A program made the translations under genes and the position numbers. A DNA stretch of 64,000 bases from Buchnera aphidicola (Formosaphis micheliae) (GTDB lineage Bacteria > Pseudomonadota > Gammaproteobacteria > Enterobacterales > Enterobacteriaceae): assembly GCF_039403185.1 (NCBI RefSeq), contig NZ_CP135047.1, positions 248,001-312,000 on the forward strand, read 5' to 3'. The notes below the pieces were generated by a model. It saw only the letters and a program-made list of their open reading frames with translations. It was not told the origin of the DNA and did no database searches. Shown in pieces: positions 15,744 to 48,131 of this stretch (the stretch's first letter is position 1; every line of letters begins with the position of its first letter).

Positions 15744-16151
15744 TTATAGTAAAAAATCTTCTAAATTTTTTTTATGATCTAAAATAGCATTTTTAATAAT
15801 AGCAGGTGTTCTACCTTGACCTGTCCACGTTTTAAAATCTCCTTTTTCATTTATATATTTATATTTTGCTGGTCTAATTTTTTTTTTTGATTTACTAGTA
15901 TGTTTATGAGTATTCATAGTATCTAATAATTCATTTGGATTAATTCCATCTGCTATTAACATTTCTCGATATTGTTTTAATTTCTTTGTTTTTTCTTTAA
16001 TTTCAGCTTTAACTTGATTTTCTTCTTCTCTACGTTCATGTACAATTGCTTCTAATTTTTCTAACATTTCTTCTAAGGTTTCTAAAGAACAATCCCGAGC
16101 TTGTGCTCGTAAAATACGAATATTGTTTAGAATTTTCAGTGTTTCGTTCAT
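15744..16151 (-). CDS. hns: DNA-binding protein H-NS
   Basis: H-NS is a nucleoid protein that binds curved AT-rich DNA and represses transcription. The N-terminal coiled-coil oligomerisation region is clear (residues 1-60, ending [14 protein letters not shown]). The C-terminal DNA-binding domain contains TWTGQGRTP at about residues 109-117, the AT-hook-like loop. Length is 135 versus 137 in E. coli. In a genome as AT-rich as this almost every region should be a potential target, so its specificity is an open question. Confidence 0.95.
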
Positions 16152-25718: not shown

Positions 25719-26468
25719 ATGTATGAAAAAATACAGAAAATCTTAGCTAGATTAGGATATGGATCAAGAAGAACATTAGAAACAATGATTCAAGCTAATT
25801 GTATATATGTAAATGGATATCAAGTAAAAATTGGTCAAAGGTATTGTATACATGAAATTAAAGTAATTCAAATTAATAATAAAATAGTTACTTTAACTAA
25901 ATTAAAACCATGTTTATTAATGTACAATAAACCAAAAGGATTAATTTGTACACGAAAAGATCCTAAAGAAAGAAATACAGTATTTAATATGATTCCTGAA
26001 TTGAAAAAATCTAGATGGATTATTGTAGGAAGGCTAGATTATAACAGTTGTGGACTTTTATTGTTTACTAATGATGGAGAATTAGCTTATAGATTAATGC
26101 ATCCTAAATTTAAAATAATTAGAGAATATTTAGTTAATACGTTTGGTACTATAAATTTAAAAAAAATAAATAAATTAAAATCAGGTATATATCTTCAAGA
26201 TGGTTACGCTAAATTTCAAAATATTCAATGGAATGAAAGTGTGATGCAAAATAATTGGATAAAAGTATCATTAACTGAAGGAAGAAATCGTGAAGTTAGG
26301 CGTATGTGTGAAAAAGTTGGATTACGAGTTAATAAATTGATTCGAATTCGTTATGGTAATATAATGTTACCAAATAATATGCGTTCTGGATCGTTTATAT
26401 ATTTAAAAAGTAATGTAATAAGAACTTTATATAAATTAGTAAATTTAAAATATATGTCAATTAATTAA
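25719..26468 (+). CDS. rluB: 23S rRNA pseudouridine-2605 synthase RluB
   Basis: RluB makes one pseudouridine in the peptidyl-transferase region of 23S rRNA. The N-terminal S4 domain (IQKILARLGYGSRR) is followed by the catalytic loop GRLDYNSCGLLL with the nucleophilic Asp, and the late block LTEGRNREVRRM. Length is 249 versus 291 in E. coli; the missing part is the basic C-terminal tail. The S4 domain and catalytic core are complete. RluE and RluF belong to the same family, but the start and length fit RluB best, and in E. coli rluB lies between trp and sohB. Confidence 0.88.
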   Translation: MYEKIQKILARLGYGSRRTLETMIQANCIYVNGYQVKIGQRYCIHEIKVIQINNKIVTLTKLKPCLLMYNKPKGLICTRKDPKERNTVFNMIPELKKSRWIIVGRLDYNSCGLLLFTNDGELAYRLMHPKFKIIREYLVNTFGTINLKKINKLKSGIYLQDGYAKFQNIQWNESVMQNNWIKVSLTEGRNREVRRMCEKVGLRVNKLIRIRYGNIMLPNNMRSGSFIYLKSNVIRTLYKLVNLKYMSIN

Positions 26469-44123: not shown

Positions 44124-46909
44124 ATGAATTATAAAAATATATTAATTCCTTTAATTAATGTTTCATGTTTATCAAAAGATAATGAAAATTATATAGAACA
44201 TATATATAATTTATTTTTATCTAATCCTAACTCCGTTGATATATTATGGAAAAATTTTTTTTTAGATATTTGTAATAAAAAAAAAAAAATGATTATGTAT
44301 ATTACTCCAGTAATAATTCTTATGACACAAAATATATTACTGATAATAATGAAAAAGTAAATCAAACATATCATACTCAAGAAAAACTATCAAAATTAAT
44401 TAATTTTTTTCGTAAATATGGACATATATTTGCTAAATTAGATCCATTAAATGTTAATATAAACGAAAAAATTACTAATTTTAATAAAAATTTTAATTAT
44501 TCTAATAATATAATATCAAGTAATGAAGATATTTCTACTGTATTAAAAATGTGTAATAATTCCAAATCTATAAAAAATATACGGAACAAATTTCAAAACA
44601 TATATTGTAATTATATTGGATTTGAATATATGCATATTACAAATAGTAAAGAAAAAAAATGGTTACAAAATTATATAGAATGTTCAATTTATAAAGAACA
44701 TTTCAATACAGAAAATAAAATGCATATATTAAATTTATTAACATATGCAGAAGAATTAGAAAAATTTATATCCAATAAATTTCCAGGTACTAAACGATTT
44801 TCTTTAGAAGGTGCTGAAACTCTAATTCCTATGTTACATGAAGCAATGTACTATGCAGGGAATCTAAATGTTTCTAAAATAATATGTTCAATGGCTCATC
44901 GTGGTAGATTAAACGTATTAGTTAATATATTTGGGAAAAAAGAACGATATTTATTTAAAGAATTTTCTAATCTATATTATGATAAAAACAAAAGCGGAGA
45001 TGTTAAATATCATTTAGGTTATCAAAATACAATAAATGTTAATAATAATATAATTGATATTATATTAAAATGTAACCCTTCTCATTTAGAAATCATAAAT
45101 TCAGTAGTTATTGGTTCTGCACGCGCCCATATAGATCTTATGGAGATAAAAAATTCCAATAAAATATTACCAATTATTATTCATGGAGACGCCGCTATTA
45201 CGGGACAAGGTATAGTTCAAGAGACATTAAATATGTCACAAGTTCAGGGTTATGAAGTAGGTGGTACTATACATATAGTCATTAATAATCAAATTGGTTT
45301 TACCACTTCTCAAAAAAAATATTTACAATCAAGTCGTTATTGTACTGATATAGCTAAAATGATTGATTCTCCTATATTTCATGTAAATGCTGACTATCCA
45401 GAATGTGCTATACTAATAATAAAAATGGCTTTAAATTTTCGTTTTTTATTTAAAAAAGATGTATTTATAGATTTTGTTTGTTACAGAAGACATGGCCATA
45501 ATGAAGTTGATGATCCTTCAGTTACACAACCTATTCTTTATCAAAAAATTAAAAAACATACTCCTGTTCCAAAAGTTTATAATGACTATTTGGTCATGAA
45601 CAAAATAGTTATGCCAGACTACATAGAAAAAATAAAAAGTAGAAATAAAAATAAATTAGAAAAGGAATATGAATATTCCACAAAAACAAAAATGTATTAT
45701 GATAATACAAACGAAATTTATAATAATATTACTTGTACTCAACAACTAATTGATTTTAAAAAAATTAAAAAAATTGCTAGTGAAATTAATACAATTCCAC
45801 ATGAAATTAATGTACATCCTTTAGTAAAAAAAATTTATGATAATAGATACAATATGGCTCTTAATAAAATTCCATGGGATTGGGGAGCTGCAGAAAATTT
45901 AGCATATGCTACTTTAGTTAGTCAAGGTATTTCATGCCGTCTTTCTGGAGAAGATATTAGTCGTGGTACATTTTTTCATCGTCATGCAATAATTCACGAT
46001 CAAAAAAATGGGTCTATATATATACCTATACAACATATCCAAAATAAAAAAGGAAAATTTTATATTTGGGATTCTGTACTATCAGAAGAATCAGTCTTAG
46101 CTTTTGAATATGGTTATTCAACCACTAATAATTCCATGTTAACAGTATGGGAAGCTCAATTTGGTGATTTTTCGAATGTAGCTCAGGTCGTCATAGATCA
46201 ATTTATAAGTTCAGGTGAACAAAAATGGGGTTATAAATGTGGGTTAGTAATGTTATTACCACATGGATATGAAGGTCAAGGTCCTGAACATTCTTCAGCT
46301 CGATTAGAACGTTATCTACAATTGTCCGCAGAAAACAATATACAAATATGTATACCTACTACAGCAGCACAAATATATCACCTATTACGTAGACAAGCAT
46401 TTCAAATTAATAAAACACCATTAATTATTATGTCTCCAAAATCAAATTTACGAAACCCTTTAACTTTTTCTAGTTTCGAAAATATTATAAATGGAAAATT
46501 TACAGAAATTATAGATGAAATAGATGACATAGAGATGTCAGAATTAAAGCGTATTATATTTTGTTCAGGAAAAATATATTACGATTTATTAGAGAAACGT
46601 CGAGAAATTAAAAAAAAATATGTTGTAATTTTACGTCTTGAACAATTGTATCCATTTCCTAAATCATTAATATTACAAATATTAAAAAAATATTCTCATA
46701 TATCTGATTTTATATGGTGTCAAGAAGAACCAATTAATCAAGGAGCATGGAATTATGTTCAACATTACTTTCGTAATATATTAGCTATAAATTCATCTTT
46801 AAAATATATCGGAAGAAAAGCGTCTGCTTCACCAGCTGTAGGAAATTTACACTCTCATAAAAAACAGCAACAAAAAATAATAAATGATGCGTTAAATATA
46901 TATTCATAA
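44124..46909 (+). CDS. sucA: 2-oxoglutarate dehydrogenase E1, interrupted by a poly(A) frameshift
   Basis: SucA is the thiamine-diphosphate E1 subunit that decarboxylates 2-oxoglutarate. The reading frame starts at ATG 44124 (AGAGAG upstream) and gives the E1 N-terminus ([19 protein letters not shown]) until a run of 13 A at 44277-44289; after it that frame stops at 44360. The frame starting from 44291 is open without a stop through to 46909 and resumes with [14 protein letters not shown], which is the expected continuation. One extra A (or loss of two) would give about 928 residues versus 933 in E. coli. Downstream motifs are intact: [31 protein letters not shown]. An internal start at 44549 would lack 142 residues. 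Transcript slippage at the A tract is the likely rescue; an assembly error is the alternative. Confidence 0.92.
44277..44289 (+). other. Run of 13 A causing a frame break in sucA
   Basis: Thirteen consecutive A in codons 52-56 of sucA. The upstream frame (position modulo 3 equal to that of 44124) and the downstream frame differ by one, and both encode clear E1 sequence. This is the exact point of the shift, a classical site of RNA polymerase slippage. Confidence 0.85.
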
Positions 46910-46922
46910 AAAGGATAAAAAA

Positions 46923-48131
46923 ATGAACAGTGTAAATATTCTAACTCCAAATTTACCAGAATCTGTCAAGACAGCAACAATTATTGTATGGCACAAAAAA
47001 ATAGGTGATTTTATTAAAAAAGATGAAATTTTAGTAGAAATAGAAACTGATAAAATTATACTTGAAGTACCTGCTATATCTGATGGTATATTATATTCAA
47101 TATTAGAAAAAACGGGAAATATAGTAAATTCTCAACAAATTTTAGGAACTATGACTACTGTTGCAAATAATACTCACAACAATCCTGAAAAAAAATCAGA
47201 AAAAATTATTAATGATATTAGTCAAAATATGTTACAAAGAAATGTAAACAATAATTTTAGCCCAACAGTCAGACGTTTATTATCATCCAACAATATGAAA
47301 ACAGATAATATTCAAGGTACTGGTATAAATCATAGAATTACTAAACAAGATATTGAAAAAACTCTTGATCAAACAAATAATACTCATGAAAAAAATATAA
47401 ATAATCAGCAACAAACAAAACATTTGCTACAAAGAAATAAAACTAGAATTAAAATGACACATATAAGAAAATGCATAGCTGATAGATTAGTACATGTAAA
47501 ACGTAATACAGCTATGTTAACTACTTTTAATGAAGTTAATATGCAACAAATTGTAAAATTAAGAAAAAAATATGGACAATCTTTTCAAGAAAGACATAGT
47601 ATTAAACTTGGATTAATGTCTTTTTATGTAAAAGCTGTTGTGGAAGGATTAAAACGTATTCCAGAAATTAATACTTCAGTTGATAATGAAGATATTATAT
47701 ATTATAACTATTTTGACATTAACGTTGCTATTTCTACTCCTAAAGGTTTAGTAACACCAGTTATAAGAAATGCTAATTTAATGAGTATGGCTGATATTGA
47801 AAAAAAAATTAAAAAATTTGCTACAAAAGCAAAATTATCTCAATTAAGTATATCAGATTTAATTGGAGGAAACTTTACTATTACGAATGGAGGTGTATTC
47901 GGTTCATTATTATCAACCCCTATTATTAATCCACCTCAAACAGCAATATTAGGTATACATAATATTCATGATCGACCTATTGCTATAAATAATGAAGTAT
48001 GTATACGTCCTATGATGTATATTGCTTTATCTTATGACCACCGTATTATAGATGGAAAAGAAGCTATTAGTTTTTTATTGGTTGTTAAAAACATATTAGA
48101 AGATTTTAATCGTATCATATTGGACATATAA
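46923..48131 (+). CDS. sucB: 2-oxoglutarate dehydrogenase E2, dihydrolipoyl succinyltransferase
   Basis: SucB carries the lipoyl arm and transfers succinyl to CoA. Domains in order: lipoyl domain with Lys in [11 protein letters not shown] (about residues 40-50), a low-complexity Asn/Gln/Lys linker, the E3-binding domain [18 protein letters not shown] (about 115), and the catalytic domain with the C-terminal [12 protein letters not shown] (catalytic His and Asp). Length is 402 versus 405 in E. coli. It begins 13 bases after sucA with AAGGAT. sucC and sucD do not follow, so succinyl-CoA is not turned to succinate by genes at this locus. Confidence 0.97.

Follow-up and report, generated by a model that had tools for sequence, protein, structure and literature searches.

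The window analysed in this study, a stretch of 64,000 nucleotides, covers positions 248001-312000 of the chromosome (554,353 long) in the two-contig genome of Buchnera aphidicola from Formosaphis micheliae, strain 28 (CP135047; PMC11193766), and positions below are those of the window unless a contig is named. The gene sucA occupies 44124-46909 on the forward strand and is divided between two reading frames. The N-terminal frame (44124-44360, +) runs from the ATG at 44124 to the TAA at 44358-44360 if the A run is read unchanged, and encodes 78 aa with the E2-binding N-terminal domain PF16078 at aa 14-49 (E 9e-11). The frame is broken at 44277-44289 (+), a tract of exactly 13 A (A13), which is also the proposed slippage site. 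The continuing frame (44279-46909, +) has a TAA directly before it (44276-44278), is then uninterrupted until its stop codon at 46907-46909, and comprises 876 codons without any further lesion. It carries E1_dh, Transket_pyr and OxoGdeHyase_C (PF00676, PF02779 and PF16870, all above the cut-off) and aligns to residues 87-932 of E. coli SucA (2JGD); its earliest start codon is the ATG at 44549. The next gene, sucB (46923-48131, +), is the intact partner gene with lipoyl, E3-binding and catalytic domains.

Stop codons close the downstream frame at 44276-44278 and the upstream one at 44358-44360, which confines the switch between frames to 44277-44357, where the A run is the sole slippery sequence. 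The SucA linker has diverged so far (10-29% identity) that alignment to homologues does not place the switch at a particular base. With the frames joined at the protein level, the product is 928 aa long, compared with 923-926 aa in relatives. The segment between the tract and the ATG at 44549 retains SucA features, such as FRKxGH..AKLDPLN, that can be read only after a frame change. All the features expected of SucA are present, namely the four Pfam domains in order, each found on one or other side of the break, the active-site motifs and the adjoining sucB. The preliminary description had taken the gene for genuine SucA with one lesion at the 13-A run, the next frame open to 46909 and continuing the same protein, about 928 residues on restoration and an intact sucB directly after it. 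These claims are all borne out by the domains, the alignment and the frames described above. It had also named further lesions in the gene as a sign of decay; a search of sucA for pseudogene signs (several independent lesions, lost domains) found none, and no second lesion was seen in either frame.

Base composition alone predicts 1.1 A13 runs per window, and such a run appeared in 43 of 100 shuffles. Chance can therefore account for the run, but not for one break in an otherwise intact gene. There are 97 A/T runs of at least 8 inside the ORFs of the window, and only the A13 of sucA disrupts a gene of which two relatives have an intact version. Comparison with the ORFs of the relatives revealed no broken gene in the window apart from sucA. 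A second copy of sucA was excluded, as the genome contains a single match.

Conservation and constraint of sucA

In three Pemphigus-type Buchnera genomes (G001, G002 and G003), SucA is intact. The preliminary description had proposed comparing the tract in related genomes, and this comparison went against a conserved tract: sucA of G001-G003 contains no long A run, and the tract is private to the lineage among the genomes compared. An old, selectively kept break is thus no more than a possibility, and the nearest relative, only about two-thirds identical, is too distant to date it. In all 15 of the retrieved genomes with a detectable SucA N-terminus, the N-terminus and the core lie in one frame. 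A SucA match is absent from 14 of 119 family genomes, several of them small. A second small-genome SucA that contained a stop (G008) was rejected as a parallel, since this stop is the natural end of the gene there.

A three-point distance test was applied to 46 genes of the window, with the ratio of the gene's own branch to the divergence of the relatives as the measure. For sucA from codon 44549 onwards, the ratio was 0.99, the fifth lowest of the 46 genes, and for the SucA core alone it was 1.16 (0.93-1.43). For the first 142 residues, the ratio was 2.5 (1.6-4.1), and Tajima tests with five outgroups were not significant. There is thus no sign of relaxed constraint in the catalytic core, but the sequence upstream of the ATG at 44549 may be relaxed. 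The earlier view that the gene is under selection thus stood for the core, whose rate is not raised, but the N-terminal part may be less constrained. The highest ratio in the window (4.4) belonged to a small H-NS-like gene (15744-16151, -), which is intact and has a T11 run.

Homopolymer breaks elsewhere in the genome

The genome contains 92 A/T runs of at least 10, and the reading frame was inspected at each of them. At these runs the frame is broken eight times, in seven genes: sucA and ung at A13, rsmC at A11, pheA at two A11 runs, recD at A10, aroE at T10 and lgt at A10, where the exact broken run is uncertain among the clustered A10, A7 and A9. Pfam profiles were interrupted at the tract in pheA, rsmC, recD, aroE and lgt, and the remainder of each broken gene was readable. 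In pheA (C1:373500-377500), the A11 runs lie at 1584 and 2024 of that stretch, both breaks need one added base, and the first is located where the chorismate mutase and prephenate dehydratase domains meet. Three of the broken genes, pheA, aroE and lgt, are genes that Buchnera is expected to need; pheA is required for phenylalanine supply. The remaining A12-A14 runs are in frame, namely A14 in rsmD, A13 in grpE and holB, and A12 in nrdB, yciA and ybeX. A candidate ninth break at a T10 run in a flagellar region (C1:74444) could be assigned to no family and was excluded from the count; sucA is thus one of at least seven genes of the genome affected in this manner.

Homopolymer breaks in related Buchnera

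Similar breaks were present in the relatives, whose A10 runs were surveyed in part and several of whose genes were named by inspecting the peptides. The rsmD tract is out of frame as A12 in G001, G002 and G003 and in frame as A14 in this genome. In three Buchnera, ung keeps its N-terminal codons and loses the frame about 15 codons in, at an A run whose length differs (A13 here, A10 and A12 in relatives). For rsmC, the tract is out of frame as A11 here and as A10 in G002, and in frame as A9. The gene rnpA encodes the RNase P protein, which is essential in bacteria; it appears to be frameshifted at one shared A run, A11 in G001 and A10 in G002, and the two shifts have opposite signs. The gene rluB is out of frame at A11 in G002 and G003, again with opposite signs; in this genome rluB (25719-26468, +) is intact and has no A run. 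Further out-of-frame genes were fabI, tilS and rsmH in G003, and trkH, purH and fliO in G002. Some breaks of the clade are common to several genomes (rsmD, ung). An identical tract that is out of frame at differing lengths, with intact coding sequence on both sides, matches the prediction of tolerated slippage.

Proposed expression of sucA and alternative explanations

The observation of the broken frame is correct, and its interpretation as a gene rescued by slippage is plausible. We believe, with somewhat better than even confidence, that the A13 is real and that sucA is still used through transcript slippage. The genome would carry a genuine A13, RNA polymerase would slip on it and give a mixed transcript pool, and full-length SucA would be encoded by those transcripts that had gained one A or lost two. 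The enzyme would then be made at a reduced level, with a possible contribution from -1 ribosomal slipping on this run. We infer both the correct run length and transcript slippage as the rescuer. What the sequences demonstrate is a single break, a gene that is otherwise intact, undiminished constraint on the core over the lineage, and breaks recurring at other runs here and in relatives.

Previous work lends weight to this mechanism. The preliminary description had held that rescue by slippage is known in Buchnera, and the literature agrees for another locus: slippage correction was shown in Buchnera of R. padi, according to the account that PMC3164680 gives in citing it. Between 1 and 18 homopolymeric frameshifts have been counted per Buchnera genome (PMC3164680), and full-length transcripts from such genes amount to about 30% (PMC3017870). 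Insertions in Buchnera transcripts increase exponentially with run length, and 151 of 157 lie inside runs (PMC5574713). In Buchnera LSR1, where runs reach up to 11, no frame-restoring transcripts were seen (PMC5574713). The A11 of Citrobacter rodentium gives 20-25% frameshifting (PMC4256274).

The main doubt about the sucA break is the run length. The genome was produced from Illumina NovaSeq reads with MEGAHIT/NOVOPlasty assembly and Pilon correction (PMC11193766), and the library was PCR-amplified (PMC11193766). If PCR stutter in the short reads and the polishing had settled on A13 where the true run is one A longer, the gene would be plainly intact. All eight breaks in this genome need one added base, as undercalling would give, and the relatives show both signs at about 8:8 (Fisher p 0.02, post hoc). 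This uniform need would equally be given by insertion-biased transcript slippage. Against an undercall stand the Pilon correction itself, the other A12, A13 and A14 runs that are in frame, and the breaks at A10 and A11. Furthermore, none of the 18 one- or two-base indels tested that separate the strain 28 plasmid from that of strain 27 falls in an annotated gene, compared with 56% coding sequence (p 4e-7). Since these small indels are all outside genes, length differences at the runs covered, up to 10, appear to reflect real evolution rather than noise. The pTrp plasmid is 99.5% identical to Formi27 pTrp over the stretch searched; many one-base indels in short A/T runs separate the two strains there, nearly all outside annotated genes, and the sole pTrp indel in a gene is of three bases. 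We regard an assembly artefact as unlikely, although it is a chance to be kept in mind. It also seems improbable to us that sucA is an early pseudogene, knocked out in this strain or species by an indel too recent for decay to show. Such a pseudogene would agree with the relatives lacking the tract, with the family genomes that have no SucA match and thus show that sucA can be lost, with the possible relaxation of the N-terminal part, and with the finding that losing a gene in Buchnera usually begins with an indel in a run (PMC3164680). However, no second lesion has appeared across 2.6 kb in a homopolymer-rich genome, sucB is intact, and the core rate is among the lowest in the window. An A13 is also expected to yield mixed transcripts at any DNA length, which makes it unlikely that a break here would abolish the gene cleanly.

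The rescue could also take place during translation, with the transcript unchanged. The ribosome frame change required in sucA is -1, and the tract contains, in the right frame, A_AAA_AAA, a classic slippery heptamer known from dnaX. An oligoA frameshift in plastid atpB is corrected by ribosomes (PMC8254509). However, no stem-loop beyond chance was predicted downstream of the tract (z -0.07 and 0.51 against shuffles), and no Shine-Dalgarno-like sequence was found upstream of it. As the folding is no better than that of shuffled sequences, structure-stimulated frameshifting was rejected; a hairpin between the T9 at 44255-44263 and the tract (U9/A13) was likewise weak and not above shuffles. Slipping by -1 could not correct the opposite-sign breaks of the relatives in rsmD, ung, rnpA in G002 and purH, and we consider ribosomal slipping as the sole rescuer very unlikely. 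Fission of the gene is the least probable reading, and we give it hardly any weight: the core of 786 aa would be translated alone by re-initiation from the ATG at 44549, and the first 78 aa would form a separate or useless peptide. The break does separate the N-terminal domain from the core, every catalytic Pfam domain is encoded after this ATG, and the part before it diverges faster. However, no evident ribosome-binding sequence precedes 44549, and the tract-to-ATG segment keeps its SucA features. The N-terminal segment of E. coli SucA binds E2; a free peptide therefore could not dock the core.

We also speculated that, in this lineage, insertion-prone transcript slippage filters the persisting DNA indels, with only runs one base short surviving, extra-A transcripts being common; this idea is quite doubtful. 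If true, it would explain why all eight breaks in the seven genes need one added base, and the dosage of amino-acid and 2-oxoglutarate enzymes (doubly broken pheA, aroE, sucA) would be tied to polymerase slippage.

Comparison with known systems

The sucA break adds one more example to a class already on record. The slippage-corrected genes known from Buchnera and Blochmannia (Tamas et al. 2008; Wernegreen et al. 2010) are likewise genes of AT-rich insect endosymbionts in which a single indel in a long poly(A) run is the only defect. The class is also alike in showing no rate acceleration of the core and in affecting several genes per genome (PMC3164680, PMC3017870, PMC4389277). Some members of that class, though not all, are shared between strains or species; the sucA break is absent in G001-G003, and the rescue proposed for it is predicted from sequence. 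The run of 13 is longer than the up-to-12 given for such genomes in PMC3017870.

Two other systems are comparable. For example, tssM1 of Citrobacter rodentium (PMC4256274) likewise has a poly(A) run (A11) before a premature stop, and an extra A restores the long frame. Both products of tssM1 are needed and their ratio matters, whereas the 78-aa short product of sucA has no evident role. The plastid atpB of Oenothera (PMC8254509) is likewise a core metabolic gene with an oligo-A frameshift near the 5' end. Its correction is ribosomal with a downstream stem-loop, a structure not predicted at sucA, and atpB still gives full-length protein, which for sucA is our proposal.

Formosaphis is a member of Pemphigini, and no earlier report of such a break in sucA or in the Formosaphis/Pemphigus clade was found in the literature searched. 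The clade is a good natural system for gauging how far slippage protects against homopolymer indels. Annotation pipelines tend to label such genes as pseudogenes, and metabolism is misread as a result. With sucA, a central metabolic enzyme joins the genes that Buchnera apparently still uses despite broken frames, together with others including the doubly broken pheA.
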